DNA of 64,000 nt from Dentipellis sp. KUC8613 (lineage: Eukaryota > Basidiomycota > Agaricomycetes > Russulales > Hericiaceae): NCBI GenBank assembly GCA_002286715.1, contig NSJX01000073.1, positions 41,583 to 105,582 on the forward strand, given 5' to 3'. This document shows positions 8,972-51,357 of this stretch, piece by piece. The notes under the pieces are model-generated. The model did not search any database. It had not been told where the DNA came from and saw only the letters and a list, made by a program, of their open reading frames with translations. How positions within the stretch are numbered: position 1 is the stretch's first letter; every line of letters starts with the position of its first letter. Both the position numbers and the translations under genes were made by a program.

Positions 8972-8999
8972 TTACAGTTGTCGTCTACACTTCAACAAC

Positions 9000-10440: not shown

Positions 10441-10575
10441 ACAAATGATGATACTAGCACAATACAGATCCAGAGCCACAATGCACAATCGAACGAAAAC
10501 TAGTGATACAGGGTATACGGGGCAGCCTGAGCACGAACCATTCCTCGACTCGCTGCCCGACATCTCGCGCGGGAC

Positions 10576-11818: not shown

Positions 11819-11899
11819 TTTGAGAGCTTGGGGTTTGAGACGTTGAGAACTTGATAGTTCTAATACTTCTGAGGTGGACACTTGGGGGCAAGTGGGGAG

Positions 11900-13370
11900 A
11901 AGACAAGAAGGCGGAGTGAGCAAGCCGATGGTTATTTGTACGGATCGGGCAAGCGCCGAAAAGTACAAGGGCGAGTCATGAGGTCTTGAGAGAACAAAAG
12001 GAGTGCGCAATTCGCGTGACGACAAGGGCCCGTGCTTACTTACCATGAGCCAATGCCCTATTCTTTCAAATTTCATTATGTCCGCGTTATCTACCTGGCC
12101 TAAAGCTGAAGGACTTCGACGTCTGGAGACGAGTTGGAAGTAGATCCTCTCAGTGAACACCCAGTTAATGCACTTTGCTTGAGAGTGCTTGTATTATGAG
12201 CGGAGGTACACTTGCTATACCGCGGTTGTCTCCGTTAGCAAGGATAGAAATTGGGGTCCTGGAAGTCAGTAGTGAAGCTAGTGAAGAGCGACATGATAAG
12301 ACGGATAGATATCAGGGACGAAAACGTTTAGATCCCTTCCATCAGTAAGCGCAATTGGGACACGGAGCAGCGGCGCCGGTCACGGAGTCCGAGAGAACCA
12401 TATTGGGGTTGAGAGCCATGCGCAATGATGGTCAGGACATCATGACGTGCCGCCGACGTGGCCTTCAAGCGATTGCCCATATTAATGCCCTCACTTTCGT
12501 TCCCTATGCTCGCAGGACACGCAACGGATAGCACTAGGCTGGAGATGATCACCCAGTGCCCAGCAGGATGCGCTAGAGAGGACGGCTGTGAGCCATGAGA
12601 GTAGTTGGCCCACCCTTCAAAAATATACCGAGCGGATGTGAAGTGGATGGCGCGGAATGGAACAAAGGCATCAGAACTGTGCCCTGGAAGAATATATACG
12701 GCCTGCAGAAAAAAGGGTGCCCAAGCCGGCATTGTCTATCGCGTGTTTTCTCCACAGATGGTTTCTGGATTCGAGTGATTATTGCTTCCGGCCCTGCACG
12801 GAAAACCATTAATCCCGAGCAGCGTAAAACACCACAGCAGGTGCTCCTTGTCTTCCATTTCATCCTGCCCTTGTGCTAGCACGTGTGAACTTGGCTTCCA
12901 CAATAAGATTGCGAGAGCGGATTCCCGTCCGCATGATGCAGGCGGATACCGTGACGAAGCAACCAGGGGAGCTCGGGGTGGTGGAACATGGCGCCGAGAT
13001 CATTATGCCGTACGTATTCCGAGTACTGGTCTGGGTTCTGGAAGCGTGATTGTCGAGAGAATACAAAAAGGGACATAATTGATGACAGCCCAAGGAGATG
13101 CAGCTGTCTCATCCTGCTTGCTGTCGGAACAAAATGAATTGAAAGACAACCGGAAGGCATCACAAGAAGGGTACGCACTCAAAGGCTGGGATCTCGAAGC
13201 CGAACGATCTACAGGACAGCGTGATTGCGTCAGTTTGGATCCGGCTCCTCTGCTAACCGAGGGGAGCATTGCAATCCCTCCGCCCTGCTTTCCCAATCGC
13301 AGACGTCTGAAAAAACGGAAAAGTACCCCAAATGAGTGCGGCAGAGTAAAGATACATCACCAATAAAAGC
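11900..13370. other. No gene recognised
   Basis: Only ORFs below about 135 codons, overlapping on both strands. None has a domain I can name. Confidence 0.4.
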
Positions 13371-14642: not shown

Positions 14643-14841
14643 TGACAAAACCTGTAAGAGCGCAGCGATGCGCGATTCCTCAGTCTCACTGCAGATAGTG
14701 GAACGACTGAGGGATAGAGAAAGAGAAAAACACGATGACACGGTATGTAGCACAGCCACAAGTGGCTTACAGACTGTACAGACGCGCGCCACAGGCGCTC
14801 TGGGGATTAGGTAAGCTCGCTACTAACCGTCCGTTTTGACA
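14643..14841 (-). repeat. Copia 3' LTR
   Basis: 199 bp, TG..CA ends. A G-rich polypurine tract (GAGTGGGGGTG on minus) abuts it at 14842-14852. The polyprotein stop codon lies 19 bp inside this LTR. Confidence 0.9.
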
Positions 14842-17800
14842 CCCCCACTCGAGCGAACCCTAAGACCCATCGCCTTCACAAACTTCCAGTGCTTCTCCTG
14901 AATAAGTGCCTTGGTTAAGACATCTGCAACCTGGTCATGTGTAGACACATAGCGTACGACCACTTCACCAGTGCGCACAAGATCATCTCGGAAGAAGTGG
15001 TACTTGCGCATGATATGCTTGGTGCGAGCACGGAATTGTGGTTCTCGGCTCAGGATTATGGCTGCTTGGTTGTCGCAGAGCAACTCTGTGGGTGATGTTT
15101 GAGGGTGTCCAATCTCGCCAAAAAATGTCCGAAGCCATGCAAGGTGTTGGCCAGCATTGCTAAGAGCAATGTATTCTGCCTCAGTGGTTGAGAGAGCGAC
15201 CATGGATTGACACTTGCTGGACCAACCAATGGCACCTCCAGTGCTGATGAAGACATAGCCTGAGGTGGACCGGGATGTGTCAGGGTCGTCTGACCAGGAA
15301 GCATCTGTGTACCCATGAAAGTCCATATCCATAGAAACATCGTTGCCATTGTAGCACAGCTCCATGTCCCGGGTGTGACGAAGGTACCGCAAGACACGTT
15401 TGGCGGCTTCCCAGTGGCAAAGCTTGGGTGCAGCACTGAAACGTCCAAGGACACCTACAGCAAAGGCAATGTCTGGACGAGTTCCAAGCATTGCATACAT
15501 GAGGGAGCCTACAACACTGGGATAGGTGACAGTGATTCCATCGTCCATGACCATTTGATGAACAGTGCGGTTGTCATCAGGATCGTTAGCAGATAATTGT
15601 GCATTATGACGCATGGGAGTGTGGGCAGGTTTGGACTTGGACATGCCGCAACGCTTTAGGATAGTGTCGATGTACTGGGCCTGTGAGAGGGAGATGGTGT
15701 GTTCGAGACGATCATGTTTGATCTCAAGACCGAGAATGTAGGACGCTTCACCTAGGTCACGCATTTTGAATGCATCGGCGAGCATAGACTTCACCTTGTC
15801 CATAAAGTACCTGGTGGTGGCAGCAAGAAGGAGATCATCGACATAAACAACAAGGAAGCAGAGTTCATTGCATTTGCCATGGAACACATAGAGACAGGTC
15901 TCTGCATTCAGGCGAGTGAAACCAAGTTCGCCAAGTTTTCGGTCAAAGGTGACATTCCAGGTGCGACCTGCCTGCTTGAGACCATATAGTGACCGCTTGA
16001 GGCGCCAACAGTACCCTTCAGGGATCTCAACCCCCACTGGTGGAGAGAGGTAGATTTCTTCTTCTAGCTCACCATTGAGGTATGCAGTGGATACATCCAT
16101 CTGGTCAAGTTCTAGGTCAAATTTGGCTGCAAGGGCAAGGATAATGTGAATGGACTCGAGGTTTGCAACTGGGGCAAAGGTCTCCTGGAAGTCAATGCCT
16201 TCCTTCTGGAGAAATCCTCGAGCAACAATACGGAGTTTGTACCGCTCAATATTTCCATTCTTATCAAGTTTGATCCGCATGACAGGTTTTGAAGAGACAG
16301 GTTTGACACCTTCTGGAATTGGAACTACCTCGTAGACATCATTGTCACTGAGGTTTTGAAGTTCTTCAGCTAAAGCTTCAATCCAGTATTTTGCATCGGG
16401 GCCAGATAGTGCCTCCTTCAAAGTCTTTGGTGTGTGATGGTCTGAATCTGGGTCGACTCCTGCTGTGCCTGCAAAGAAAGCTTCAGCTGCGCTGTCGTCA
16501 AGTTCCAAGATGGCATTGTGCAGTTCTTCAGCCGTAAATGGCTGGTTGGTAGGTTGCTGGCTGGCTGAGGTATCCAGACCTTCCCCCTCCTGCGGCTGTT
16601 TGGACTGCCGACGAGTTAACATGTCTCCAAGTAGTTTGGCTGTAGCCTCTGCCTCGCGGGCCAATTTCTTGTCTGCAGCATGTTTCTCCTGGCGAGCCAC
16701 TGCATCATACCATCCTTGTGTAGGTGGAGGAGCAGGCTTGCGAGCACGTGAGGACTGACGAGTCCCAACTTGCGGTATGGGTGCAGGTTTCCGCATCTGT
16801 GACTGGCGGACCCCTCCTACTTTCGGTGCAGGAGAGTGTTGGATCACAGGTGAACGGGGTTCAACCTTGGGCACAGGAATGTCTTCAGATGGCGCGTAAG
16901 TCTGAGTGGGGATGCGCGGCATCTCTGGTACTGGAGGGACCCCCACTGCTTGCGACATTGAAGATGGCCCAGGTAGCGCATAACCCTGGCTGGATTTGCG
17001 CGCAGGTTTGGGTACCATAGGGGCCCCCACTGCTCCAGGGAGGGCTGTATCTCGCGCGTAACTCCGAGTGGAAGTGTGCGCGGGTTTGGCTACTGTGTGA
17101 CCACTGCCAAGGTGTGGGAGGTGCACCGATGTGTCTTCAGTCTTAGGCACAGTAACAGGGGCCTTGGGAGCAGAAAAACGCGCATATATCCGGCTGGGGT
17201 TGCGCGTGTTTTTGTCCTCGGCATGTGCAGGGACCTGAGTGCGATTGGAAGCCATGTCATCTGCAGGTATGTGATTATGCGCGTACACCCGACTGGATTT
17301 GTGCGTGTAATCTGTAGTCTCGTGCACTGTCTGGGGTGTGAGGTCACCCTCGGGTGTAGTGGGAGCTTCAGGAGCTGGAGTACCCGCATATGTCTGTGTG
17401 GATTTACGTGCCATTCTGGGGATACCTGAGCGGAAAGCTGCCTTTGGTTCTGCTGACACTCCAAAGCCCTCCGTTGTGGTTGGTAAGTCATCAGGAATGA
17501 CTTCACCATCAGGGAAGAATGAGGCAGGTGGTATCTCATCGTCATCCAGATGCAGACGAGTCTCGACTGGTGGTGTAGGTACCGAAATAGCACTCTGCGG
17601 GAGTAAGTCATTGCGAAGGAGGTCATTGTAAGAGGTATTGCTTGGATCATGATCTGGTAGGGAGACTTCAGATGGTGCTGTACCCTCTTCATTGAAGCAA
17701 ACATGTCTGGAAACATAGACCTGGCGGGTTTCAACATCCATAAGGCGGTATGCCTTCTGTGTGGGCGAGTATCCCAACAGCACAGCTCGACGAGCTTTGC

Positions 17801-19994
17801 CACCAAATTTACCACTGCGCTTGTCCTTTGTGATATATGAATAGGCCGGACAACCAAAGGGGCGGAACATAGAGGTGTCAACTCGCCGCTGAAATAGTGT
17901 TTCGAATGGAGTCTTTCCTTTGATACCAGCAGCAGGGCGACGGTCAATGATGAAGGCAGCTGTGTCCATAGCATCTGACCAAAAGCTCTTGGGAAGTTTG
18001 GAAGCAATCAGCATAGACACAGCAGTGTTGACAAGGGTCTGGTTGGCACATTCTGCAAGTCCATTTTGCTCAGGTGTATCTGCAGCTGTAGTTTCCTTCA
18101 ATGTCCCCTCCTGGCGAAGTTTCTCCTTGAAGCCTGAGTCTTCGTATTCACCTCCATTGTCAGTCCTGAAGAAGTCGACAAAGTTGGGGGAGAGGATAAC
18201 AGCACCGACTTCTTGTCGGAAGAAAGCTTCAGCTTCAAGTTTCCACTGGTTGTATTTTGCCCGAGCTTCGCTTTTGTGCTTCATGAAGAAGACCCACATA
18301 AACCTCCCATAGTCGTCAATGAATGTAATCCAGTAGCGGTAGCCTTGACGAGACATTGGTGTGACTGGTCCCCCGACATCTGAGTGGATGAGCTCAAGAG
18401 GCCGAGAGCTGCTCCAACGTCCATTCGATTTGAAAGGGAGCTTGCGCATCTTTCCGAGAATGCAAGGCTCACAGAACTCCGGTTTTCCAGTCAATGCTGT
18501 GATGTCCTGTAGTTGTCCTTTTCGGACCATACGTTGGAGAGTATCAGTGGGTGTATGACCCATGCGGCGATGAAGAACATTGATGTCGACAGAGACAAGT
18601 GCATGAGTAGGGGAGATGGTGAAGTCAATATCCAGATGGTAAAGCCCTCTGTGATGGTGCCCATGCATTACAGTTTTATGTCGTCTGGCATCTTGGACGT
18701 GACAAACCTTCTCCTCGAAAGTGGATATGAGTCGGTGCTTTGCAAGACTGTTGACGGATATGAGGGTGATTGCAAAAGAGGGGACATAGAGTACTTTGTC
18801 CAGTCGGATGGAATAGATTTTTCCATTGACCTTGCTAGCGATGCATATAGATCCAATGCCAGGAGCTTCGACAAAAGACTGATCACCGAATCGAATGCGC
18901 CTTGGTGGGTCCAGAGGTCGGTAGGAGTCTGGCTGGAACCAGCTGATGTTTGGTACCATTGTTGCAGAAGCACCCGAGTCCAGAATGATTGTGAAGGCAT
19001 TTCTTACTTCAGGTTCGGACGAGAAATAAGCCTCAAGATCTGTCATAAGACGCTTCGAGATAGTTACACGAGAGCCTGTTCTATGTGACGCAATTGCCAA
19101 CTGAGCTGTTTCATCCGACTCTGAGTCAGATGATTGGTCGGCCGCTGAATGAGCTGAGTCCTTTTGCTTCCTTTTCCCTTTCCCCTTCTGACCTGATTTT
19201 GGCGCGTAACCCCGCTCGGATTTGCGCGCTGATTCACCCTCTTTGGCACGCTTCTTCAGAGTGAAACACTCCTCTGTTGTGTGTCGTCCGGCACCATGAA
19301 GGGAGCACACCTTCTTGCTTGTGTGAGCGGCGTGTGTGCTCTCGGTGGACTCAGCGAGAACATGCTTTGCTTCACCTTGAAGTCGTTGACGGACTTCAGA
19401 GAAGGAGGCTGGCTTATCGGCAGGGAGAGTGTGAAGAACCGATGTTTTGAATGTCTCCCAATTGTTGGACGATGGGAGTGAGTGAAGTAAAAGGTAGATG
19501 AGGAACTCGTCATCCAGGACCTTCTTGAGTGATGCTAGAGAGCGACGGCCATTGGTGAGGAGGTTCAGATGGACATCGAGCGACTCGAGAGAGGCGCCAT
19601 CCCATCGAGCGTTCATCATGTCGACGAAGGTGTAGAATCCGGTGACACCAGCATTTGCCTTCTCGAAGAGCTTGACAAGAGTGTCGTAGAGGTCCTTGGC
19701 AGAGTCGATGTGAGCATACTCCATTGCCAGCTCATCACTGATGTACTCGACGATTATGCCATGTGCCTTTCGGTTTTGAGTGGCAAAGGTGTCGCTTGAG
19801 ACATAACTAGGAGAGTAGAGGGAAACCGAAGCAGCAGCTAGTGCTGAAGAAGCAGTTTCTTCCCCAGTAACGATGGCAAGAACCTTCTCCTGGCCGAGCT
19901 TCGATTTGATCCGGACTTGCCAAAGTCGGAAGTCATCCTGCGAGTGCAGGACCGGGCAAGTGGTGTGGCCACCACTTGAGGCTGATGAAGCCAT
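14823..19994 (-). CDS. Copia Gag-Pol polyprotein
   Basis: About 1723 aa from the ATG at 19994; no frameshift or stop. Order: Gag; a variant zinc knuckle CSLHGAGRHTTEEC (C-x2-H-x4-H-x4-C, about residue 245); aspartic protease with DSGA at about residue 339; integrase with an H-H-C-C region near 470-520 and the catalytic core (HSDVGG, TDNGGEYE, EQNGLAE, about 540-645); reverse transcriptase with YVDD at about 1384; RNase H (YTDASWSDDPDTSRS, about 1560). The order IN before RT defines Ty1/copia. Between integrase and RT (about 860-1045) there are at least six degenerate copies of a short Ser..Tyr-Ala motif such as KSTQTYA, KSSRVYA and KSSQGYA. The same motif occurs once in Gag (KSERGYA). The element looks able to encode all its proteins. 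Confidence 0.95.
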   Translation of the reverse strand: MASSASSGGHTTCPVLHSQDDFRLWQVRIKSKLGQEKVLAIVTGEETASSALAAASVSLYSPSYVSSDTFATQNRKAHGIIVEYISDELAMEYAHIDSAKDLYDTLVKLFEKANAGVTGFYTFVDMMNARWDGASLESLDVHLNLLTNGRRSLASLKKVLDDEFLIYLLLHSLPSSNNWETFKTSVLHTLPADKPASFSEVRQRLQGEAKHVLAESTESTHAAHTSKKVCSLHGAGRHTTEECFTLKKRAKEGESARKSERGYAPKSGQKGKGKRKQKDSAHSAADQSSDSESDETAQLAIASHRTGSRVTISKRLMTDLEAYFSSEPEVRNAFTIILDSGASATMVPNISWFQPDSYRPLDPPRRIRFGDQSFVEAPGIGSICIASKVNGKIYSIRLDKVLYVPSFAITLISVNSLAKHRLISTFEEKVCHVQDARRHKTVMHGHHHRGLYHLDIDFTISPTHALVSVDINVLHRRMGHTPTDTLQRMVRKGQLQDITALTGKPEFCEPCILGKMRKLPFKSNGRWSSSRPLELIHSDVGGPVTPMSRQGYRYWITFIDDYGRFMWVFFMKHKSEARAKYNQWKLEAEAFFRQEVGAVILSPNFVDFFRTDNGGEYEDSGFKEKLRQEGTLKETTAADTPEQNGLAECANQTLVNTAVSMLIASKLPKSFWSDAMDTAAFIIDRRPAAGIKGKTPFETLFQRRVDTSMFRPFGCPAYSYITKDKRSGKFGGKARRAVLLGYSPTQKAYRLMDVETRQVYVSRHVCFNEEGTAPSEVSLPDHDPSNTSYNDLLRNDLLPQSAISVPTPPVETRLHLDDDEIPPASFFPDGEVIPDDLPTTTEGFGVSAEPKAAFRSGIPRMARKSTQTYAGTPAPEAPTTPEGDLTPQTVHETTDYTHKSSRVYAHNHIPADDMASNRTQVPAHAEDKNTRNPSRIYARFSAPKAPVTVPKTEDTSVHLPHLGSGHTVAKPAHTSTRSYARDTALPGAVGAPMVPKPARKSSQGYALPGPSSMSQAVGVPPVPEMPRIPTQTYAPSEDIPVPKVEPRSPVIQHSPAPKVGGVRQSQMRKPAPIPQVGTRQSSRARKPAPPPTQGWYDAVARQEKHAADKKLAREAEATAKLLGDMLTRRQSKQPQEGEGLDTSASQQPTNQPFTAEELHNAILELDDSAAEAFFAGTAGVDPDSDHHTPKTLKEALSGPDAKYWIEALAEELQNLSDNDVYEVVPIPEGVKPVSSKPVMRIKLDKNGNIERYKLRIVARGFLQKEGIDFQETFAPVANLESIHIILALAAKFDLELDQMDVSTAYLNGELEEEIYLSPPVGVEIPEGYCWRLKRSLYGLKQAGRTWNVTFDRKLGELGFTRLNAETCLYVFHGKCNELCFLVVYVDDLLLAATTRYFMDKVKSMLADAFKMRDLGEASYILGLEIKHDRLEHTISLSQAQYIDTILKRCGMSKSKPAHTPMRHNAQLSANDPDDNRTVHQMVMDDGITVTYPSVVGSLMYAMLGTRPDIAFAVGVLGRFSAAPKLCHWEAAKRVLRYLRHTRDMELCYNGNDVSMDMDFHGYTDASWSDDPDTSRSTSGYVFISTGGAIGWSSKCQSMVALSTTEAEYIALSNAGQHLAWLRTFFGEIGHPQTSPTELLCDNQAAIILSREPQFRARTKHIMRKYHFFRDDLVRTGEVVVRYVSTHDQVADVLTKALIQEKHWKFVKAMGLRVRSSGGVKTDG

Positions 19995-20035
19995 AAGTGA
20001 GTCGTTCGAGGTTAGGCTGGTATGTTCAGGCAACA

Positions 20036-20246: not shown

Positions 20247-21983
20247 GCATGTTGGCCTGCTTCTTCACCAAGACCAACACTTCGTGAACGGCACTGCATA
20301 AGAAGTGAGCAGCCCCAACGAATAATGCAAAAATTAGGCACCATACTCTTGCAGTCTTGAGGTTGGCGCCTCGAGCTCCTCTATGACCTCAGCTCCTGCG
20401 TCAGACATCTCTTTTCTAATAGATATTAGGATATCAGCGCAACGTTTCGTCAGAATCTGACATGTGGAGCGATGCATCTGCGGTGCCGCAGGTGTTCAGT
20501 CGGTACCACACATGATGTGAGATGCAAACATACCTGAAGGTGTTGAACAAGACTCCAGATATCCAGTAATATGCGAGCGACATAACGAAGTCCACCAGGA
20601 AGAGCCGAGTTCAAGGGAGCCGGTTGAGGTGCAACGGCCGGGTCAATATTGTCCTCGAGGTCCGATGTAGCACGTAAGACACTCTGTGGGGTCTAGTTAG
20701 AAGATGCAGATGGTCATAAGGAGTAAACATACCAGTTGTGTTTCGTCGAATTGTTCTAACTCGGACGGCTCCAGAGGAAATGCGGCTCTCGGTGAATCAA
20801 AACCGGTGGATGCTCTTCGGAAAGATAAGCCTGAATTGTTCTCTACAGGCGAGCGGTCTCGAATAGTTGACTGCGCTGGAATGCCTTCCGGTGAAGTCAA
20901 GATGGGAGGTACACCACTGTGCGCATACACTAATGAGAGGGCCGAGGTACTCGGCGAGGAGCTCGACCGTGATTGCGACACATCAGATAATGCCACGGTC
21001 CCCTGTCTGTGAGTGAAAGAGTCCTCTGGGATCACTTCCTGGTCCGGATAAACGTCTGTTGGTGCAGGAGTCGTAGCAGAAGTGGAGAAAGGTTCTCACA
21101 TGGAGACCACATCACTATTGTCCAATTCCACATCCGCAGACCACTCGGAGTTGCCAGTCATAAGGTTATTGATCAACGCCAATTTCTCCTCAGGCGACGC
21201 GGTGGTGGAACCCTGAAATTCGGGGGGAAGATCGTAAGATGCGACCAAAGTGTCGAGGCTATCCATCCATTCGAACCCGAGCGCACTTGTCGTTTCGATC
21301 CACCGCAGCAGGTTCCGGGACATAAATTGCGAAACCTCCAACACCAAAATATCGTTCTGACGGTCGTTTGCTATGCTGAGATGTTGCACAAAGAACTGGC
21401 ATGCGTAGCGCAGGGCGCCGCCGACGGGAAGGCCTTTCTTAGTCGATACGCTACCCTCCTGGAATCGGCCGCTCTGGGGCACCTCGTCATCCAGCCTTCT
21501 ATTCAAGATTTTTGCACATTGAAGAGCGAGTACAAGGTTCCAGTACGATAGGTCAAGATAGAATTGCGGACACCGTTTCTTGTCCGTGAGGTACTCGAGA
21601 AGGGAGGTGTGCACGAGAAAGAAGCTGCCAGAGAGTCCCTCGTGTGTCGAAGTCGTACGCAATAGACACCTTACCGATGAAATGAATTGCATTGCGCCTT
21701 CCATGGGAAAGGGCTGCCGATCCGGGAGGTGCACGTCACTATACGAGTCGTCCCGAAGACCAAGCAGGTCGTTCAAGTCTTCGAGTTTGAACGCGGTTTT
21801 GCCGGCAGCAATACAGCCCATCACATAAAGAAATTCGGAGATGTATGCCGGAGCATGATTCCTAGCTTCGAACGCAGACTGGATGACAGACTCGTATAGA
21901 GTATCGAGCTGGTGGCTTCCGCCATGGGTAACGACCTCGGTGGACAAGACGGCTGGCAGTCTCGAGAGGGGACTCTCCGACAT
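20247..21983 (-). CDS. C-terminal half of a split NLR-like (C2-NACHT) gene
   Basis: Exons 21983-21101 (coding base to 21100), 21006-20733, 20683-20534, 20477-20347 and 20293-20247 join in one frame. The first exon is the region that follows NACHT domains in basidiomycete NLR-like proteins (LDTLYESVIQSAF, VLHTSLLEYLTDKKRC-like motif, LRYACQFFVQHLS). A Ser-rich linker follows. The last exons encode a helical region (GGLRYVARILLDIWSLVQHL, CQILTKRCADILISI, then LQDAVHEVLVLVKKQANM) that resembles the four-helix N-terminal domain of MLKL-like proteins. The gene lacks its start because the 1931-bp element begins at 21984, and lacks its end because the copia LTR begins at 20247. The first exon joins in frame to the plus-strand half at 26450 (see findings). 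A stop (TGA) is read if the first intron is not spliced, so the helical part could be a separate gene. Confidence 0.7.
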
Positions 21984-23914
21984 CAGTAAACCACGTAATC
22001 GTCTGAAGGGCCTGCCACAGGACCTCTCAGGACCTCTCAGGACGTTCAGGGCTTCAGGTGTCAGGACATCGAAAATGTGCTGTCAGGAAACTCCAAAAAA
22101 CAGCTTCAGGATGACAGGGCTGCAGGCTGCAGGCTGCAGACGAAATTTATATGTTCAATTGCTATATTTCACGGACAATATCCTACAATATCATTATCTA
22201 CACTTCTCCTGACGTGCTGGCACTCTCCCAAAACAACAGAAATGTCACGATTGCCGGCGAGCGCGACCGCAGGGACGGGTGGGCCACGCGGTGATCAGGT
22301 TTCGCAGGGCCGGTCGTCAATGTGGATCGGATGTGGATCGAAACAACGGCGCAAACGAAAAATTAAAGCTGAACGAATAAAATGAGCACGTACAGCTATA
22401 GCTATGCTCAGGTTTTCCGTCGCTCCAGCTACATGTTGAGGTGCTCGATCGCGTGACGAACAGGGACAGGACGCGACGTGCTGCGCGGATGTTCAGCTCT
22501 GGAACGAGTCTGAACCCAATCCGGGACGCAAGGAACACGAGGGGGAGAATAATCAGCACGAGCACGGGCACATTGCACGACGTCGAGCAGAACCGTTCCA
22601 GCGCGCAGCACTCGGTGCGCGTAGGAAGGTGGTTCGCGCGCACCACCCATGCAATCGCCCTCCCACCCTCCGCCCCAGCGCCCAGCCGCAAGCCCACCTC
22701 TGTGCTTGATGTTGCTGGACCTCCCGCCTGCGATCCGCCCTCGCAGTTCGTGCATTGCAGAATTTTGATCACCGCATCGTCGAAGGTCCACTCGCTGCCG
22801 ACCAAGGTGAGTGCATCACCTTCTCCCCGACTCGACCTGCGGTATGTATCCGCAGCACGGGCTGTAGGCTTCTTGCGCCGCAAATTACCCTTGATCGTGC
22901 GAGCCTTGCGGTTCTCCTGGAGCAATAGATAGTGCAATGTCACTTTCAATATGAAGATGTAGCATGATAGTTACATACCTGGTACCACCCTTGCTCGCTC
23001 CTGGATTGTTGCTCAATTGACTGAAGGGTGTGCTCGACGTATGGACGAGGAAATTGAAGGGCAGAACGACTTCGACGCGGTGCCGAGTCGCTGACTACAT
23101 TTGCTAGCCAATGGGACGCCGAGTTGGTTCTGTACAGCCGTCGTCAGCCACAAAGATTCTGGATTACGTCACGCACCTCGGTTTTGCTCGCCAGTACAAC
23201 AACTTCAAATCCTCGACATACTGTACTCACATTGAGACTGCTTCTTGAGCTTCAAGCTTCTCGCTTGGAGCACCGGATATCCTGCAGCCGGCCATTGTAG
23301 GTATCCGTTTGATATTAACCGCTTTCTCCATTAGCAGGCCATCAATTCGTGCCGTTGTGCGTACATGTAAGTTTTCGAGTTGCCAGTGTGCCACGCTTAC
23401 TCCTGCTCTTCCCGCTCAAGTCTTTCGGCAGCCGCTGCGCTGCGAACTTGACTGATACACGGTTCACTGACGAGTCTCACATATTGCGTATGCCTACGAG
23501 CACGGGCACGTATACATATCAGCATATGTGGTATTTGCTATGTGCGCCTGCTGGCGGCTACCGCCTCCCACGGACGCGAAGACAAGCAGGTCGTTCGGTG
23601 TGATGGCACTACGGTCTCTCTCGGAAGGGATCTGCAGTAGGAGCAGGGAGCGCAGCAGGGGTAATGGTGCACCTAGAAAGAAAGCGCATGGGATGCCCTC
23701 GCGCATTTGCGTGCGATACAACAGGTACCGTCATTCGTCGATAGAGCTGAGATCATATTATTATTTACATAGTACTCGGCTCGTTTTTGTAACTACTTCA
23801 GATTCAGAAAATCATAATTCTTTGAAGCCAGTCGATCTGAGACCTGCAGGTCCTGACAGTCCTGAAGGGGTCCTTCAGGACCGTCAGGACCTTCAGGGAC
23901 TGCCACTTTTACTG
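21984..23914 (-). mobile_element. 1931-bp inverted-repeat partner element, left copy
   Basis: Ends CAGTAAA..TTTACTG with AT on both sides. Subterminal regions are packed with CCTGA/TCAGG motifs (for example CCTGAAGGTCCTGACGGTCC). The same 1931 bases occur in reverse at 26451-28381. No transposase is recognised. The strand given follows the ORF it carries. Confidence 0.8.
22317..23295 (-). CDS. ORF carried by the 1931-bp element, left copy
   Basis: Mirror image of the gene at 27070-28048; see that entry for exons and features. The predicted proteins are identical where I compared them, including the 210-codon open stretch of the last exon. Confidence 0.5.
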
Positions 23915-24160
23915 ATGTGTTGACCTTGACTTCGCGTTGGATCGCACGAGAATGGAGGATAGGTGCGCCTCTACTATCATATCGATATTCATCCAGCTGG
24001 CTGATGCATCTGACTCGTATGCTGTGTTGTTCTTCAGCCTGATAGCCATCAACCTCAGGAGTGAGTAGTACATCACTCATTCAACTGCTCAAATCTCACG
24101 ACCCTCATGCTCTGCACGTCTGTATTCTGACTCCACCTGCATGAATCCTTGGTTCTCTAG
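23915..24160. other. Unresolved 5' region of the NLR gene
   Basis: A segment between the left element copy and the first clear C2 exon. It has an open frame with an ATG at about 23951, but I could not splice it convincingly to the exon at 24161. Confidence 0.35.
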
Positions 24161-26450
24161 TCATCCGAGCCCGCAATCTGCCCTCATCGCAGATATGGAA
24201 CTCCGCCATACAGGTGTTCGTCTTGGTGACGCCCGGGGGAGGCAAGCAGATGTTCCGTACCGAGATCATGAGCGGTTCCAATCCAGAGTGGAACGAACTC
24301 TTTGTTGTCAGGTACATTTTTTTCTACTAATAGCTCATTGTGACGGCTTGGCTGATTGTGCCCTTCTCGTAGACTTTCGACTTCGTCACCCATAATCCGA
24401 CTTCAGGTGTTTCATACTTCTGAATCTGCGGGGATGATTCTGCTCGGTCAAGCCGACGTTTCTGTGGGCGTGCTGCTGCAGGAAGAGCTTTCGGGTATGC
24501 AATGCGCTCGGCTACTTCAATGTTATGCGACTGATATTCGTGTCACAAATTTTGGGACCTTTTTGCAGAGGTTCAGTGTATATTGACAAAACCAGGTCTC
24601 AAGATCCGGCAGAATCGTGGTGTGCTGTTTGTCTCCGGAGAACTGCACATTGAAGACAACCAGACCCGGATACCCCCAGAATCGGGTGTCATATCCTCTC
24701 CACTCTCGGAAACAACTCCGAATCGAACGGGTCCTGCTTTGTTACAGTCCGCCGAGTACAGGCTTAGGCAGGACACTGGGTCATTCGCGTTGCAGGCAGT
24801 GCTTCACCAAGCTGAAGTCGGAGTGAGCACACTTTCGGCGCCTTCATTTCTCAGAACGGCTGGTTCGGCAAACGGTACAAACGGCGTCGAAGGCGCCGCG
24901 AACAGCGATGTGTTGCAGGCTACGGGCAACGTGCTGTCTAGTGTTTTGGGTAACGTCGTGCGTCTAGGCGATGCCTTCGCGGAGGTGTGTCGCTTCTTAT
25001 CCATTTCTTCGTTTAAATAATGATATGCCGTGATGTTTCATCACAGGTTCATCCTTATGCCAAGCTTGCATGGACCGTTCTCAGCAGCGGCTACAAGGTA
25101 AGATTAAAAAATTTCCAGCTTGTTCTAATACTGACTGTGGTCGTCATCATGTATAGATACTCAAGGCGCAACTTGATCACGATGACCGCGTTCGAGACCT
25201 GTGGCGCATAGTGCAGGATGTTGTTCAATACTTTGACGATTCCAAAGACCAGCCTGCACGGGCGAACTACCTGCAACAAGTCATGGTGGACGTGATGAAA
25301 CAGATATACGAGTGCTGCGGGCTGCTTCAGAGGTATACGGAACACGGGTTTACAGGTGAGTGGGATGTCTCACGGTATTGGAAGTATGCTCATTTACCTC
25401 AGGAAGGACTGTTCAGAACATGCTTAACACCCAGAACGATGATGCGGTGCAGGCTATGACCGAGTCATTCCGGACGTTGAAGGGCCAGCTTGTTGGGGGC
25501 GTCAGCCTGGACAGCTGGAAATACATCCGAGCTCTCAACAACGACATTGGCGAGATGAGGGACGCCTGTACGTGTGATATTCGCTATTCGAGTCTCCGAT
25601 TGCAGCTCACTTGACACCCGGTTCCGGATACTGCAGTTTACGAGATGTGGCTACACACGCTGATCGAAGGCCAAGTGAACGCAGTCGAGTGCGACACGCG
25701 CCGTCGCTGTCTCTTCGGCACACGCACAAAACTCATCGACGACATCACCTCGTGGATCCACGACCCGGACGCGTCGCGCGGAGGCGTGCTCTGGCTCTCG
25801 GGTCCTGTCGGCACGGGCAAGTCGAGTGTCGCAAACACCATCGCGTGGCTCCTGAAAGGCCTGGGCCGACTCGGTGCAAGCTTCCGGTTCAACAAGCAGG
25901 TCGATCCGTCTGCGGTATTTCGACAGATCGCATATCAGCTGGCCCGCATCAACAATGCAGCGAGGGACGCGATCCTCTCAGTGCTGAAACAGAAAGGCGA
26001 CATCGCGTCTGCAGCGCTGGCAGATCAGGCTATGAGCGTCGTGGTGCAGCCGCTGCGGGCGGTGGATCTAGTTGGCCCCGTGGTGATCGTCATCGACGCC
26101 CTAGATGAGATCAACCATGCCGATGCGCGTGTCCGAGACGACATCCTGGAATTCTTCTCACATCAAGACTTCGTCCTGCCTAATTTTATGAAGATACTCA
26201 TCACTAGCCGGGACGATCCTCGGGTGCGCCAGCACTTGCAGCCCAGCCGCAGATGCGAAGTGCTGAACATCGACGACTATGAGGACACGCCCGGCGACAT
26301 CCTTCTGTTCATCCAGCACCGTCTGCGAGAGACCCAGGTGCTCGCACAGCTTGCGGAGGAATGGCCCCCGGCGGGCGCAGATCGAGAGCTAGCAGAGCGC
26401 GCAGGGCGACAATTCCAATGGGCATACATAACGTGTCAGTTCATCTCCAT
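24161..26450 (+). CDS. C2-NACHT half of a split NLR-like gene
   Basis: Exons: 24161-24311, 24373-24494, 24569-24984, 25047-25097, 25157-25355, 25403-25567 and 25637-26450. The first two encode a C2-like domain (IRARNLPSSQIWN, then SGSNPEWNELFVV). A helical linker follows. The last exon has a NACHT NTPase: CLFGTRTKLIDDITSWI, Walker A GPVGTGKSS, Walker B VVIVIDALDE, and ITSRDDPRVRQHL as sensor-like motif. Such STAND proteins act in fungal self/non-self recognition and programmed cell death. The frame runs to 26450, where the right copy of the 1931-bp element begins; beyond it the frame soon stops. The start exon is not resolved. The other half of the gene lies on minus at 20247-21983. Confidence 0.85.
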
Positions 26451-28381
26451 CAGTAAAAGTGGCAGTCCCTGAAGGTCCTGACGGTCCTGAAGGACCCCTT
26501 CAGGACTGTCAGGACCTGCAGGTCTCAGATCGACTGGCTTCAAAGAATTATGATTTTCTGAATCTGAAGTAGTTACAAAAACGAGCCGAGTACTATGTAA
26601 ATAATAATATGATCTCAGCTCTATCGACGAATGACGGTACCTGTTGTATCGCACGCAAATGCGCGAGGGCATCCCATGCGCTTTCTTTCTAGGTGCACCA
26701 TTACCCCTGCTGCGCTCCCTGCTCCTACTGCAGATCCCTTCCGAGAGAGACCGTAGTGCCATCACACCGAACGACCTGCTTGTCTTCGCGTCCGTGGGAG
26801 GCGGTAGCCGCCAGCAGGCGCACATAGCAAATACCACATATGCTGATATGTATACGTGCCCGTGCTCGTAGGCATACGCAATATGTGAGACTCGTCAGTG
26901 AACCGTGTATCAGTCAAGTTCGCAGCGCAGCGGCTGCCGAAAGACTTGAGCGGGAAGAGCAGGAGTAAGCGTGGCACACTGGCAACTCGAAAACTTACAT
27001 GTACGCACAACGGCACGAATTGATGGCCTGCTAATGGAGAAAGCGGTTAATATCAAACGGATACCTACAATGGCCGGCTGCAGGATATCCGGTGCTCCAA
27101 GCGAGAAGCTTGAAGCTCAAGAAGCAGTCTCAATGTGAGTACAGTATGTCGAGGATTTGAAGTTGTTGTACTGGCGAGCAAAACCGAGGTGCGTGACGTA
27201 ATCCAGAATCTTTGTGGCTGACGACGGCTGTACAGAACCAACTCGGCGTCCCATTGGCTAGCAAATGTAGTCAGCGACTCGGCACCGCGTCGAAGTCGTT
27301 CTGCCCTTCAATTTCCTCGTCCATACGTCGAGCACACCCTTCAGTCAATTGAGCAACAATCCAGGAGCGAGCAAGGGTGGTACCAGGTATGTAACTATCA
27401 TGCTACATCTTCATATTGAAAGTGACATTGCACTATCTATTGCTCCAGGAGAACCGCAAGGCTCGCACGATCAAGGGTAATTTGCGGCGCAAGAAGCCTA
27501 CAGCCCGTGCTGCGGATACATACCGCAGGTCGAGTCGGGGAGAAGGTGATGCACTCACCTTGGTCGGCAGCGAGTGGACCTTCGACGATGCGGTGATCAA
27601 AATTCTGCAATGCACGAACTGCGAGGGCGGATCGCAGGCGGGAGGTCCAGCAACATCAAGCACAGAGGTGGGCTTGCGGCTGGGCGCTGGGGCGGAGGGT
27701 GGGAGGGCGATTGCATGGGTGGTGCGCGCGAACCACCTTCCTACGCGCACCGAGTGCTGCGCGCTGGAACGGTTCTGCTCGACGTCGTGCAATGTGCCCG
27801 TGCTCGTGCTGATTATTCTCCCCCTCGTGTTCCTTGCGTCCCGGATTGGGTTCAGACTCGTTCCAGAGCTGAACATCCGCGCAGCACGTCGCGTCCTGTC
27901 CCTGTTCGTCACGCGATCGAGCACCTCAACATGTAGCTGGAGCGACGGAAAACCTGAGCATAGCTATAGCTGTACGTGCTCATTTTATTCGTTCAGCTTT
28001 AATTTTTCGTTTGCGCCGTTGTTTCGATCCACATCCGATCCACATTGACGACCGGCCCTGCGAAACCTGATCACCGCGTGGCCCACCCGTCCCTGCGGTC
28101 GCGCTCGCCGGCAATCGTGACATTTCTGTTGTTTTGGGAGAGTGCCAGCACGTCAGGAGAAGTGTAGATAATGATATTGTAGGATATTGTCCGTGAAATA
28201 TAGCAATTGAACATATAAATTTCGTCTGCAGCCTGCAGCCTGCAGCCCTGTCATCCTGAAGCTGTTTTTTGGAGTTTCCTGACAGCACATTTTCGATGTC
28301 CTGACACCTGAAGCCCTGAACGTCCTGAGAGGTCCTGAGAGGTCCTGTGGCAGGCCCTTCAGACGATTACGTGGTTTACTG
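26451..28381 (+). mobile_element. 1931-bp inverted-repeat partner element, right copy
   Basis: Exact length match to the left copy, in opposite orientation, starting CAGTAAAAGTGGCAG and ending GTGGTTTACTG, with AT on both sides. All four outer junctions read CATCAGTAAA when oriented outward-in, so either AT is a 2-bp target duplication or the terminal repeat is longer. The spacer between copies is 2536 bp. Confidence 0.8.
27070..28048 (+). CDS. ORF carried by the 1931-bp element, three exons, unknown function
   Basis: Exons 27070-27134, 27236-27386 and 27449-28048 splice in frame (GTGAGT..TACAG and GTATGT..CCAG introns) to about 271 aa. The product begins MAGCRISGAPSEKLEAQEA, then has a basic segment (ENRKARTIKGNLRRKKPTA), a Cys cluster (CTNCEGG and CCALERFCSTSC) and one strong membrane helix (VPVLVLIILPLVFLASRIGF), followed by another basic stretch. 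It does not resemble a transposase I know. An intron inside the last exon is possible. The fact that it splices cleanly argues that it is a gene picked up or native to the element. Confidence 0.5.
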
Positions 28382-29196
28382 ATGGAGTGAATGCCTCGAG
28401 TTCCTATAGAGCATAGCCAGTGTTTATAGATCGAAGCTGATAGCAACTCACCGGCACCAGTCAGACCATATCATGGGTCTGTCTTTCCATTCCTGTGCAT
28501 ACAGTACACTACCTGCGACTGACCTCTGTGCGATCGGCAATCGCGCCTTTGTTTCGAGCAGGTTCTGGGTCGCTGTATGCTCGCGACGTGCTGCTTACCG
28601 CTCACTATCTATACACGACGTGGATGGAGCGGTTCGAGATGATCCAAAGTGTATGCAGTATTCGACTATGTAGAGCGGCGCGGTGAATGGCATTACGAAC
28701 AGCAACGCCGGTGTGTGAGTCAATTCAGTCGAAGTAAGCTACTGGAAGGCCAGGAACCGGGAACTCGCCGCGCGGTGGAGGGTAGAACTTGGGCCGGATG
28801 TCCAGACAAGCGGCGTACGTCATCTATCCACGTCATGTCTGCTCTCGCCTCTTCCTCGACTTTCGTTTCCTCCCTCACCGGCACCGATGTGCAGACGACC
28901 TTGGAGATCCATTGCTTTCACTCTCAGATCTATGAATGTCTGTTCCTCGTCTCTTGGTTCTCATCTGCTTCCATAGGATGTTCAGGGCGAGGATCCGCGT
29001 CCGCATCGCGTTTGACAGGCCGATTGGAGCGAGTGGTGTAGATTGCGGCCTGTTCGGGGAGAGCATCGCCGCGTAGGCAGGCAAAGGTACGTCCGTTAGC
29101 TTTCTTTCGACTGCATTTCGTGGTGTGTGGAGAGGGGCAAGGGCCACACGGATTCCTTTCTGACTGCGGGGAGACGGAGTTGGAACAACTAGCGGA
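28382..29196. other. Intergenic or 5' sequence of the NLR gene; no gene recognised
   Basis: Under the inversion model this was once the upstream flank of the C2-NACHT gene. On minus, a GTGAGT..CTATAG pair ends just beside the element, so an upstream exon may lie here. A plus-strand ATG at 28834 opens a 69-codon ORF I cannot place. Confidence 0.35.
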
Positions 29197-30431
29197 ATGT
29201 CGTCATGGTGCACGTCCCTTATCATGTCGCGCGTCCGTGCCTCTTGTATTCCATTCATGCCTGCCGCCGCCGCTTCCATTCACGCCGTTGCATGGTTCGC
29301 GTTCGTGTACAAGCTCCTGTGGACTTTGCTATGCCTCGTGCTCTCGCTGCTGCTCCGCTGGCCCGTCGCCGGACACACCCTCCAAATCGCCCAAATCACG
29401 CTTTTCCCACTGACCGTCGCCGACGTGCACCTGCGCCTGCCCGCCTCGCGCCACACCCTCTCGTCCAACACAACTCTGCACTTCGCCCTACTCTCGCTCA
29501 GCTGGTCCCTCCCCAGCCCCTCCTCCCCCACGCTCCTCACCACAAACCTGCACCACGCGCTCCTCACCACGCCCCTCTGCTCCGTCTCCACCGCCCTCCT
29601 CACCGCCCGCCTGCGCATCCTCCCCGTCGCCTGGTCCGCGAGCGCCGGGCCCCCGCTCCATGCGACGCTGCATGATTTCCGCCTGCGCGTGTTCCGCAGC
29701 GCCGCGACGCCGCGCGCGGTGCAGCGCCTGCGCGACGCGGTCGTGGGCACGGTGCTCTTTGGCGAGTGTCTCCGCCTCGATGGGTTCAAGACGACTGTGC
29801 GCTTCGGCCCGTCGTTCGTGTATAGCCCTGCGCCGATTCCACTTGGGCCTGCTGCTATCCAGGACAAAAACGAAAAGAAAAACAAGGACGAGGAGGAAGA
29901 GGACCTGCTCGTCACCGCGCGCGCCGAGACGCTGCACATGCACGACGGCAAGGGCCGCGTATATGCGTTCGACGAGGTCACCGCGTGCATGCGCCGCACC
30001 TGGGGCGCGGGCGGACGCGGGCCGAGCGAGGACCGCGGGACGTACGAGATGGAGGCGCAGGGCGCGCGCTGGATGCGTCTCCCGCCGTTCGTGCTGCCCG
30101 TGCGGCCGACGCGGATGCAGGTCGTGTGCGTCCGTCTCACTTCCTCGCAGTAATACAGTATCCCCTTCCGAGTCAGCTTCTCTCCTTCCGGATGTTGCTG
30201 ATGATACTATTTTTTTGGTGCAGACTCGGCGCCTGGCTCGTCGCACCCGCATATCTGATTTACACCCTCCTCGCCGACCCCCTCCGTCTCGTCGACCTTG
30301 TCGTCCCCGCCGCACATATCCGCTTCGACGCATTTCGCATGCGCGATGCTGCGCTCGTCCAGCGTGGGTTTGAGGTGCTGGCGAGGGCGTTCGTGGGCGG
30401 GCACGGGTGCGGTGCGGGTGCGGGTGGGTGA
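29197..30431 (+). CDS. Membrane protein with two hydrophobic ends, unknown function
   Basis: Exon 1 29197-30149 and exon 2 30224-30431, joined across a 74-nt intron (GTAATA..GTGCAG) in frame, give about 386 aa. A strong membrane segment lies near the N-terminus (FAFVYKLLWTLLCLVLSLLLRW). The middle is soluble, with a Lys/Glu-rich insert (DKNEKKNKDEEEE). The second exon adds LGAWLVAPAYLIYTLLADPLRLVDLVV, a second possible membrane-associated segment. In-frame ATGs at 29197, 29224 and 29257 are all possible starts. Not recognised as a named family. Confidence 0.65.
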
Positions 30432-31500
30432 TGAGGACGAGGACGAGGACGAGGACGGGGATTTAGGATAGGGAGCTCGAGGGGAAGGTGATGGTGTGGT
30501 ATGTGATTTCGGTTGTCATATCTTCATTGTATCTCGTTTTTTTTTTTTGTTTCTACTAGGACGTGGACATACTGGCAGATACATGTACACAGACCGCATA
30601 TGTATAATAGCACATATTGCCCCCCGCACGCCCGCTCGACCCACGGCTCTTCGCTTCATCGCTTCGAAATTCATCGCGCCCCGGCGCTCGGTAGCACCAA
30701 CACCAACATCCCCGGTTCCCGCTTTTCTCTCTTGGACTCTGGCTCTCTCAACAAGATCGCATTTCGTATGTACATACACATATAGTACTTGTCTCTCCTC
30801 TTCTCTTCTCCGCTACCTCAACAGCATTCTCATTCTCTGTAAGCACTCGTACTCGTACTGAGCATTAAACGTTAAACCCAAAGCCAAGGCAGCAGTCACG
30901 CGATCAATCAGGCCTCGCTCTCCCATGCGTGCATGCGTCATGCGTCTCCTGCAGGGCGGACCTGTATTCTGATTTAGCGCGCGAGGGTGCGGGTGCGTCC
31001 CGGTATCATACAAAATAGATATACATACATACATACATACATATATAGCACCAGCTGCAGCAGGACAAGTCGCAAGTACGTACTTCCCGCGATGGATGGA
31101 TGGGCTCCAGCTGGCCTTTGGAGTAGTACTAGTACTACTACCCGTCCGCCATCCAAAAGTCCAGGTGCGAGAATTCGAACTCGAACTCGAACTCGAACGC
31201 GACTTTGACCTTTTTTTTTTTTCTTTCTTTTCTTCGGATCATGCCACGGCACCACACATCATCTCCTGGCACTGGTGTTTCATCACCGTACGTGCGCGTG
31301 ACCTCTGCCGTGGGTTTATTACAGCCCCTTCGGACCCGGTCAGTACTAGTACTAGTACTGGCACATTGCACATTCAAGGCGCAGCGGAGAGCACACGTGC
31401 AGACTCTCCGCGGGTCCTAGTGTGACGCGAATTTGGAAATTTGGAGGAAGGAGGGCAGGCTGCGGACCTCGAGTCTCGAGTCTCGAGTCTCGGATTCGCA
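30432..31500. repeat. Cluster of microsatellites 3' of the membrane protein gene
   Basis: At least five different short tandem repeats lie within 1.1 kb: GACGAG units near 30436-30460, ATAC near 31020-31042, GAACTC near 31175-31198, AGTACT near 31340-31360 and GAGTCTC near 31466-31493. No gene is supported here. Confidence 0.7.
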
Positions 31501-31719
31501 CCGCCCGCCCGCTTGCTGTCCGAGCCTGCGTCTGCCTCGCACACGCTGCGACTCGGATGTGCCGTTAAATAACGTTGCGTGCGGTCCCTCGGGGGTACTT
31601 ACTACTATCCGACGTCCGAGTCGACGGTCTTCAGCGCAATGCAACTCCTCGGACTCCTCGGACATGTCAATGTGGCTAGCGCTATTTAAATTTTACACAT
31701 ACATAAATCACCGCACTTA

Positions 31720-32450
31720 ATGATGCGTGTGCATATGCGGGATTTCTTGGGCGCCCGTACGCGAGCAATTGAAGACCTCTGTGAATCCCTTCGTGAGGAC
31801 CCGGATCTCATCAGGGTCGCTGGGCACCAGTCTGGTATGTACTTACCATCCTACCAAAGGCATCCACCCCGATACCTTCGACAGAGGGCGTCGCCCAATA
31901 TTTTCCCAAAGCTTATCACCATATGCGTACGCGGGTGCGTGAGGTCATCAATGCTCAACCAGGTACAAGCATGGCATTCAAATCCAGTGCCTACCCCACC
32001 GGCACTATCAACTTTGGCCCGCGCACTGTCTGCCAGCGGCATATGGACACCGCAAACTACCCTGGGATCCCATGCGCCATTACTCCCTTCGGGGATTTCA
32101 ACCCCGACACTGGCGGGGACCTATACCTCTGGCAGCTCAAACTGCGGATTCGGTTTCCCCCTGCTGCCACCATCATTGTCTCCTCTGCAGGCATTGCGCA
32201 TGGCAATGTCCCAGTAAACCCAGGCGAGCGTCGGTATTCATTCACACAGTATTGCCCTGGTGGGTTGGTTCGATGGGCGGCATACGGCTGCCGCCCTGCC
32301 AGCGACTTTGATGACGCCGATCGTGAACAGATGGATAGCGAGGCGGTGGAGGGGTTGGCAGCCCAGCTCGCTCATTTCTCAACACTGACTGGATTGAAGG
32401 ATGATCAACTGTGGCTGAGGGAGCAGGAACAAGTCATGCATGCGTTGTAG
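31720..32450 (+). CDS. 2OG-Fe(II) dioxygenase-like protein (TET/JBP-like fungal family), short form
   Basis: Exons 31720-31834 and 31885-32450, joined across a 50-nt intron (GTATGT..CGACAG), give about 226 aa. The sequence has the order expected for a double-stranded beta-helix dioxygenase: an HxD (RHMD), a conserved block ITPFGDFNPDTGG and DLYLWQLKL, FPPAATIIVSSAGIAHGN with the second His, then ERRYSFTQY with a candidate Arg for 2-oxoglutarate. Relatives are abundant in mushroom-forming fungi and have been linked to TET/JBP enzymes that oxidise methylated bases, some carried by transposons. This copy is short at the N-terminus, so it may be truncated, but the core residues are kept. Substrate is unknown. 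It ends 83 bp before a Helentron-like element. Confidence 0.6.
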
Positions 32451-35500: not shown

Positions 35501-36938
35501 TGGCGGTGTGCGGGGGTGAAACAGCAGCGCACGGGGGTAAAATACACGTCCTGCGCCGTTGCTGAGGCGCGCAGCGCGCAGTGACGTCGCAGGGGGCGGT
35601 TACGGGTCGGCGCAAAGGTGTTTGATGCGGCGAGAGGGCATACACGGCGGGGTGTGGGCGTCGCAATGGCGTATAGGGCAGCGAGACGGCGTACAGTGCG
35701 CGTCCTGTGCCGTTGCTGAGGCAGGTAAGGCAGCGCGAAGCCGTTTCAAGCGCCGAGAGGGCGTGGGGCGGGCGTTGTCTGCCGTTGCTAAGGCGCGCAG
35801 GGCGCCGCGGCGGCGCATGGGACGGATACGGTGCGGCGCGAAGGTGTCAGAGGCGCCAAGAGGGCGTACTTGGTGGGGCGTGGGGGTGCAGAGCGACGCG
35901 ATGGCGGCAGCCAGATGGCGTAGATCGCGCGTCGAGCGCCGTTTCTAGGGCGCGCGAGGTGGTGACAGCACGGGTGGGGCAGCAGCAACTCGGGCAAGGG
36001 CGGCGGGGGCTCAAGCGAGGGCGGCGGGCAAGAGGAGCGGGGCGGGGCACGACAACAGAGACAAGAAAAAAAAAAACTTACCTGTCGCAGCCTCACGTTG
36101 CTCTGCCCCTCGAACTCCTCCTACATGCCTCCGTATTGGCTTGTAAGCGCAGTTCTTCGGGGGCTTCATGGGGCGCGAGTGCGTATGCGGGTGCGGGCGG
36201 GAGTGCGAGCGCGAGTGCATTGAGGATGGCGATGGCGATGGCAATGACGACGAGAGTCGAGTGATGAGCTGGCGCATCGCCAGAGCCACAAAGACTCTCG
36301 GCAATTCCCGCGCATGGCTCTTCAACTCAGCGTTCGGGCAAAGACAGGCTCTTTGAAAGCCGAATAAATTGGCTAAATTTCTAAGTAAATTTGTGAAGCC
36401 GCAATCATACATAATACGCTCTTGGAAATATTTTCAAGCGAGGACAATGTCTCTTGCATTGACAACGGTACCTCTTTCAATCTGACCCTCTAAAGCACGA
36501 CGCGACTTCCACTTTCTGGGCGATGCAGAGATTCAAATCGTTTCAGATTTTTATGGCAGGTGTATATACTTGTTTTGTACGTTTTGTCAGAATTTTACAA
36601 TGATTGAAGCTAAATTGAGCTGTACAGAAAATAAAAGAGAAGTGTCTTGAACCAATGTGGCTGAAAACCGTGGGAACCAACTTCCCGAACTTGAGATTTT
36701 GAAGTTCTTCGAGTTTTAGTGGCTCACCCCATTATTAGAACTGATTCATAGATGAATCAGAAAGTNNNNNNNNNNAATGATTGAAGCTAAATTGAGCTGT
36801 ACAGAAAATAAAAGAGAAGTGTCTTGAACCAATGTGGCTGAAAACCGTGGGAACCAACTTCCCGAACTTGAGATTTTGAAGTTCTTCGAGTTTTAGTGGC
36901 TCACCCCATTATTAGAACTGATTCATAGATGAATCAGA
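32533..36938 (-). mobile_element. Helentron-like non-autonomous element, copy II
   Basis: On the minus strand it starts TCTGATTCATCTATG at 36938 and ends CACTAG at 32533. Outer bases are T on both sides. Just inside the 3' end is a GC stem in the position of the 3' hairpin, and GATGAATCAG upstream of it, the complement of the first bases of the element. The interior is an AT-rich 3' part (32540-33000), a G-rich degenerate array (33000-36060) and a 5' part. No helicase gene is present. The true length is uncertain because of a gap at 36766. Confidence 0.68.
33000..36060. repeat. G-rich degenerate array of copy II
   Basis: Dense, imperfect GCGCGAGGGCGGCG-type repeats with G far above C on plus. 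From about 35010 to 35960 a longer repeat appears at irregular 80-190 bp spacing: CCTGCGCCGTTGCTAAGGCG at 35210, 35375, 35553, 35703 and variants. ORFs of 200-440 codons in several frames are by-products of the lack of stop codons. Confidence 0.85.
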
Positions 36939-36942
36939 AAGT
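36599..36942. repeat. 167-bp exact direct repeat across an assembly gap
   Basis: Bases 36599-36765 and 36776-36942 are the same, separated by ten N. This looks like unmerged contig ends and not a biological duplication. Confidence 0.85.
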
Positions 36943-39301: not shown

Positions 39302-39471
39302 TGTAACGGGTTGCACTAGGGTAAGACAGTACGTCACGGGTAGAGCCAAGCCGCGTCGCAAAGAGCCGAAGTAAATACAATCTCCGCTTCAATTATAATA
39401 GCTCATGTATTTAATGCGAAGAGAAGGAGAAGGAGAGGTATCGAATATAACTTACTTTTTCCGACTTTTCT

Positions 39472-39510
<39 letters not shown>

Positions 39511-40011
39511 CGCGGTCGTGGGCGAGAGCCTTTCCACGACAGTCGCCGACGCGACCTTTGGAGTCGTGAAGGAGAGCTCGAGTGTGGGAAACTCGAGTCC
39601 GAAAGCGGCCGGACGCGCCTCCTGTCGCGCCACGTCTAACACCTGCTTTCTATCTTCTTCCTCTTCATCGTACTTCCTTTCTGCGCGGATCAGAGCTCGG
39701 CTTCTCCAGCTCTCGAGCTCGTGCTTCTCTATCTCTCTCTCTCTTTCGAAGCCGTCGTTCACTCACTCTTCCTCCCCGCGAAACTCTCGATAGCGACTCT
39801 TCCGGACCTTCCCTCTCGTCCTTCGCTCTCCTTCTCCAGACTCGACGGAATCTCCTCGAGTCGCTTCTTCTCTCTCACTCTCTCTCTTATCATCTTTCCC
39901 TTTCTTACAGGTGCCCTTTACGGGACCGTTCCTACCTTTGGAAACACCTCCTCCGCCGTCTCAGACGCTTCGCTCGCGCTCCGGTCGTAACTAGCTCCTC
40001 GAGCCGTTACA
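39302..40011 (+). repeat. Gypsy 5' LTR
   Basis: 710 bp, TG..CA. It contains a CT microsatellite at about 39475-39507, shared with the 3' LTR. Confidence 0.92.

Positions 40012-51318: not shown

Positions 51319-51357
<39 letters not shown>

Follow-up and report, generated by a model that had tools for sequence, protein, structure and literature searches.

The window analysed here, 64,000 nucleotides from the basidiomycete Dentipellis sp. KUC8613 (positions 41583-105582 of contig C143; the genome comprises 34.1 Mb in 171 contigs), contains the two halves of an NLR-like gene together with two copies of a transposable element. The N-terminal C2-NACHT half lies on the plus strand between the arms of an inverted repeat, and the C-terminal half lies on the minus strand to the left of the left arm (Table 1). 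A repeat of 1937 bp at 100% identity, formed by an element whose family is also present elsewhere in the genome, is far beyond chance. The identity of the arms ends sharply at the ends of the element; the repeated unit is thus the element and nothing else, and a segmental duplication was rejected for the same reason. The original prediction had recognized a perfect inverted repeat, which stands, but had given arms of 1931 bp (21984-23914 and 26451-28381) around a middle segment of 2536 bp. The arms measure 1937 bp because the CAT/ATG at the border belongs to the terminal repeat CATCAGTAAA, and the segment between them has a length of 2530 bp.

Table 1. Features of the disrupted NLR-like gene and of the inverted repeat (positions within the window)
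Feature	Position	Strand	Basis or remark
Host part of the C-terminal half, NLR-like gene	21096..21980	-	54-62% identical to four paralogues; stop-free in the compared part 21150-21980
TC (GA on plus), second half of the target-site duplication, C-terminal side	21979..21980	-	Junction alignment, flank comparison
Left copy of the non-autonomous PlavakaB-type element, 1937 bp	21981..23917	+	Ends CATCAGTAAA/TTTACTGATG; identity and borders; seven other elements with the same ends
Segment between the arms, 2530 bp	23918..26447	.	Inverted versus the inferred ancestral gene, or orientation ambiguous in the assembly
N-terminal half, made up of a very short putative first exon (ATG 23952), the exons of the C2 domain and an NTPase exon whose last base is 26447	23952..26447	+	Pfam; 71-76% identical to four paralogues
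TC, first half of the 2-bp target-site duplication, N-terminal side	26446..26447	+	Junction alignment, flank comparison
Right copy of the same element, inverted, 100% identical	26448..28384	-	Identity, flank comparison
210-aa ORF inside the element	27416..28048 (mirror copy 22317-22949, minus)	+	Similar to a 244-aa open frame on C91 (48%) and to a short stretch on C149; no Pfam match
Stretch presumed to have been the 5' flank of the gene before it was severed	28385..28746	-	By position; C144-like sequence starts at 28747

Several further features surround this arrangement. To the right of the repeat, window 28747-30656 is 81% identical to C144:52040-53936, a related neighbouring locus. C144 was rejected as an allelic contig, since the match covers the neighbouring locus only and the adjacent 1.5 kb is without NLR sequence. 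The NLR-like gene has a second related block to its left, where six stretches within 6895-13115 are 66-81% similar to C4:32195-38517 and colinear with it. An open reading frame at 2134-2688 matches the UstYa family (PF11807, 7.9e-11). The window also holds a copia-type open reading frame (14823-20033) and a chromodomain Ty3-type one (40015-47817), with pairs of long terminal repeats of 199 bp at 14643/20048 and of 581 bp at 39291/51136. The Ty3-type element as a whole extends over 39291-51716, its terminal repeats are 99% alike, and between them a 1037-aa open reading frame (47992-51105) has no Pfam match. Finally, a gap of 10 N (36766-36775) is placed between identical 167-bp ends (36599-36942), that is, an unmerged contig overlap and a local assembly artefact.

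Two halves of one gene

In the N-terminal half the matches to NPHP3_N (4.1e-22), AAA_16 (1.7e-8) and AAA are all above the Pfam cut-off, and the match to NACHT (2.1e-4, 21.6 bits) stays under its cut-off of 26.7. The NTPase part contains the sequence GPVGTGKSS, which we take to be a P-loop-like motif. With the joined peptides of two exons as query a C2 domain is recognized (PF00168, 1.7e-8), and the start and the donor site of the first exon resemble those of the paralogues as judged by eye. In a few basidiomycetes, NLRs are described that carry C2 at their N-terminus (PMC4986451). The gene accordingly has an NTPase of the NACHT/NB-ARC type and, with C2, the N-terminal effector or signalling domain of a fungal NLR (STAND) protein. 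The C-terminal half, where a repeat (sensor) domain would be expected, matches no Pfam family at all, and a search of the protein collection with this half returned no relative at E <= 0.001. Because such a sensor part was not recognized we term the gene NLR-like.

Searched against its own genome, the N-terminal half yields 12 matches, namely itself, four at 71-76% and seven at 26-32% identity, and the C-terminal half yields six (itself, four at 54-62% and one at 26%). Four places on C1 (2864413-2925363, close to the end of the contig) are common to both sets of matches, and there the halves directly follow each other in a single open frame. Since the halves are uninterrupted in all four close paralogues, we conclude that the two pieces belong to one gene, just as had been predicted. 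Judged by this similarity, the window gene is the fifth member of a C2-NACHT NLR-like family. The cluster of the four paralogues stops about 4 kb short of the end of C1, and no run of TTAGGG-type telomere repeats was noticed in the last 69 kb of this contig.

No stop codon interrupts the parts compared with the paralogues (801 nt of the N-terminal and 831 nt of the C-terminal half). Between the window copy and the paralogues dN amounts to 0.15-0.16 for the N-terminal and 0.27-0.36 for the C-terminal half, with dS above 1 or saturated. Stop-free halves with low dN and high dS are compatible with a recent break and do not demonstrate activity. An allelic contig without the insertion was not found in the genome: neither half, nor the 3' flank (20247-21260), nor the 5' flank (28385-32400), has a near-identical second place.

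The inserted element

The element begins with CATCAGTAAA and ends with TTTACTGATG, and thus has the termini CATCA..TGATG that are reported for PlavakaB, whose target-site duplications are 2 or 3 bp long (PMC12730594). A scan of the genome for YATCAGTAAA gave 97 sites versus 61 for the reversed control. Outside the window, seven pairs of ends face each other within 10 kb (the next larger pair measures 19 kb). They delimit elements on C57 (8353 bp), C96 (2532 bp) and C139 (1930 bp) and four miniatures of 99 bp on C51, C98, C138 and C149. All seven have matching 2-bp flanks (GG, TG, TA, TT, CT, GA and GA). Of the window copies, the one in the gene is likewise flanked by TC/TC when the middle segment is read un-inverted, and the upstream copy, with TC/TG, fails to match. 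The 99-bp miniatures (C51:104468, C98:100951, C138:41181 and C149:50333) share the 10-bp ends, and the one on C149 has, at a distance of about 0.7 kb, sequence that resembles the cargo of the 1.9-kb element.

No transposase was recognized in the 1937-bp element. Neither its 210-aa open reading frame nor any of seven other open stretches, 89-217 aa long, matches a Pfam family, and the idea that the element carries its own transposase was rejected on these eight stretches. The 210-aa frame is possibly a captured fragment of a host gene. We therefore file the element, by its ends only, as non-autonomous and PlavakaB-type, and its excision would need a transposase from elsewhere. The genome contains 38 Plavaka matches as well as matches to KDZ transposases. 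One of the relatives with the same 10-bp ends, C57:2727-11079, encloses a Plavaka match (PF18759, 6.4e-67) with two TAG codons inside. The subterminal repeats of the 1937-bp element are of the CCTGA/TCAGG type and those of the C57, C96 and 99-bp members of the CTTG/CAAG type, so C57 does not provide an identified source of a cognate transposase.

Among the best candidates scored in a DNA search with the element, the only ones besides the window copies were that on C139 and a fragment of 126 bp. The C139 copy (L005 3107-5036, equal to C139:560606-562535) is 93% identical, has a length of 1930 bp and is flanked by TA/TA. It splits a GNAT acetyltransferase gene, of which the left piece ends with VMLTGKG and the right piece, with a GNAT match of 1.2e-14, begins with YIVPCTK. 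Next to this gene, an open frame of its family has the sequence ALTTGYSGWIVPCTK. Thus all three full-length copies found of this PlavakaB-type non-autonomous element sit in genes or just 5' of one, two in coding sequence and one about 35 bp before the putative start codon (ATG 23952).

The insertion site

Before the element the N-terminal half ends with TTC ATC TC, and after it the C-terminal half resumes with TC GGA GAG. If one TC is shared, the join reads TTC ATC TCG GAG AGT CCC, that is FISESP, which agrees in length and frame with the four paralogues compared, three of which read FIAESP and the fourth FIADSP. From the overlap of two nucleotides and the paralogue-like length of the join it follows that the target-site duplication is 2 bp, TC (GA on the other strand), and it emerges once the middle segment is read un-inverted. 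The original prediction had started the C-terminal half with the ATG at 21983, had kept one of two AT dinucleotides and had proposed the join TCC ATG TCG GAG as an exact excision scar. This join uses the wrong border and the wrong duplication. The ATG (21983-21981) falls wholly within the terminal repeat of the element, AT is not the target-site duplication, and the resulting FISMSESP would be two residues too long; the alignment of the junction with the paralogues rejects it. The more general claim that one element has inserted into the gene is borne out by the paralogues and the element ends, and we regard an insertion into the exon as near certain on this evidence. Splicing-out of the element in the manner of an intron was dropped after inspection by eye, as the sites seen lose the frame and the element is 1.9 kb long. 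Such a length is long for an intron in such fungi.

Proposed order of events

As assembled, the two copies are flanked by GA/TG and TC/GA, thus neither has matching flanks. With the middle segment flipped the copy in the gene obtains TC/TC and the upstream copy TC/TG. The TC/TC flanks together with the colinearity of the paralogues suggest that the un-inverted order is ancestral and that, as originally predicted, one inversion explains the odd arrangement.

We suggest that the locus arose in the following steps, a history to which we assign a probability of roughly 0.7. The 1.9-kb non-autonomous PlavakaB-type element inserted into the coding sequence just after the NTPase part, duplicating 2 bp (TC), as the paralogues and the element ends show. 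A second copy, which is present in the assembly, would have come to lie in the opposite orientation some 35 bp before the putative start codon. A crossover between the identical inverted copies could have flipped the 2530-bp segment with the N-terminal half and so have brought the halves onto opposite strands. The product is a broken receptor gene, in which the N-terminal half reads seven codons into the element before a stop and the C-terminal half is left without promoter and N-terminus. The inversion itself would be a by-product, as flipping the segment back would leave the frame broken.

The TC/TG mismatch at the upstream copy counts against the simplest history. As the copies are 100% identical, it is unlikely that a clean duplication has mutated since, unless gene conversion has kept the copies alike; the mismatch might also stem from an imprecise insertion or from alternative transposition. 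Local alignment of the flank at 28385 with the promoters of the paralogues (100 mononucleotide shuffles per paralogue) gave no significant similarity. Of the 9-mers of this flank 2 of 1008 recur in the paralogue promoters; its opposite strand has 5 such matches, and the remainder of the window has 119 among 55993. The terminal 9-mer of the flank, CATTCACTC, does occur in the promoter of one paralogue, which in view of these controls is no evidence.

Alternative explanations

That the halves were two separate genes, never joined, with the repeat between them by chance, is virtually impossible given the continuity of the four close paralogues across the junction and flanks that abut with an overlap of 2 bp. 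Nothing in favour of this view was found. More weight is due to the assembly. Both copies could be real while the 2530-bp segment is in fact un-inverted, or present in both orientations in the culture. Reads shorter than the perfect repeats cannot orient the segment between them, and it is the un-inverted order which restores TC/TC at the copy in the gene. In addition, the gap between identical ends at 36599-36942 indicates that this very contig was imperfectly scaffolded, so the orientation of the segment may be a choice of the assembly; N runs of 233, 951 and 1444 in the loci L013, L017 and L018 may likewise be gaps or masked stretches. Against this, two LTR elements of 5.6 and 12.4 kb whose terminal repeats are 99% alike came out of the assembly free of N, and this points to reads or libraries that span several kilobases. 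We consider an assembly ambiguity unlikely and the inversion of the 2530-bp segment probable. A rather improbable variant is that the second copy and the inversion were both made by aberrant transposition, with alternative or reversed ends, from the first insertion and not by crossover between independent insertions. Inversions caused by alternative transposition of Ac are documented in maize (PMC8225341), and the imperfect TC/TG flank of the second copy could be the trace of such a non-canonical event. The routes which we worked out on paper, however, should likewise produce a matching duplication at the new target, and none is seen; nor is any intermediate structure present. These explanations are not fully distinct from each other or from the preferred history of two insertions and a crossover, so their probabilities do not sum to one.

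The original prediction had further raised the possibility of a natural on/off switch, by which a cell-death or allorecognition gene would be controlled through inversion and excision. Here the frames decide. The open reading frame of the N-terminal half comprises 275 aa ending with FISISKSGSP in both orientations, and upstream of the ATG the C-terminal half has the same 33 open codons in both. The two orientations thus do not yield different products, because the element stays in the exon either way and the N-terminal half reads into the same element end. The frame would be restored only if the element were lost. The compared parts of both halves are free of stops, Plavaka matches are numerous in the genome, and fungi do use inversion switches, for example the flip/flop mating type of Ogataea polymorpha (PMC5720833). 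Nevertheless, a functional switch is hardly credible, as flipping does not alter the frame, the C57 relative differs in its subterminal repeats, and the search described above found so few further copies. It is likewise very improbable that the segment flips in the living mycelium and that rare precise excision by a PlavakaB transposase acting in trans rebuilds the receptor in some nuclei, which would make this a reversible allele. Should orientation or excision variants be found among isolates, the locus would be a switchable NLR allele.

Comparison with known systems

In summary, the locus is a well-preserved wreck of a known kind and not a demonstrated genetic switch. It offers a clean and recent-looking break of an NLR-like gene, most steps of which can be read in one genome owing to the paralogues, the target-site duplications and the third copy at 93% identity. 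The inversion at intron 22 of the human F8 gene is likewise a gene split by recombination between inverted repeats; there, as in the history proposed here, a gene is torn in two by a crossover between inverted copies, although in the window the insertion would have disrupted the gene before any crossover. Among the papers listed in our literature search, judged on titles and the openings of abstracts, no account of an NLR gene split by inverted transposon copies was found.

In the flip/flop mating-type switching of Ogataea polymorpha a DNA segment is reported to invert (PMC5720833, PMC4238957), and the inversion decides which MAT genes are repressed, whereas the window locus has no intact frame in either orientation. 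With PlavakaB of the Agaricomycotina (CMCT clade), as outlined in PMC12730594, the element shares the CATCA..TGATG ends and the 2-bp duplications, but it has no recognized transposase and carries a host-gene-like fragment. Fungal NLRs are described to undergo birth-and-death evolution (PMC4986451). A further comparison is with the basidiomycete C2-domain NLR-like genes outlined in the same source: although the C-terminal half in the window is without a Pfam match and this copy is broken, the gene shares with them the C2 domain, the NPHP3_N/NACHT-type NTPase and the membership in a family of paralogues.
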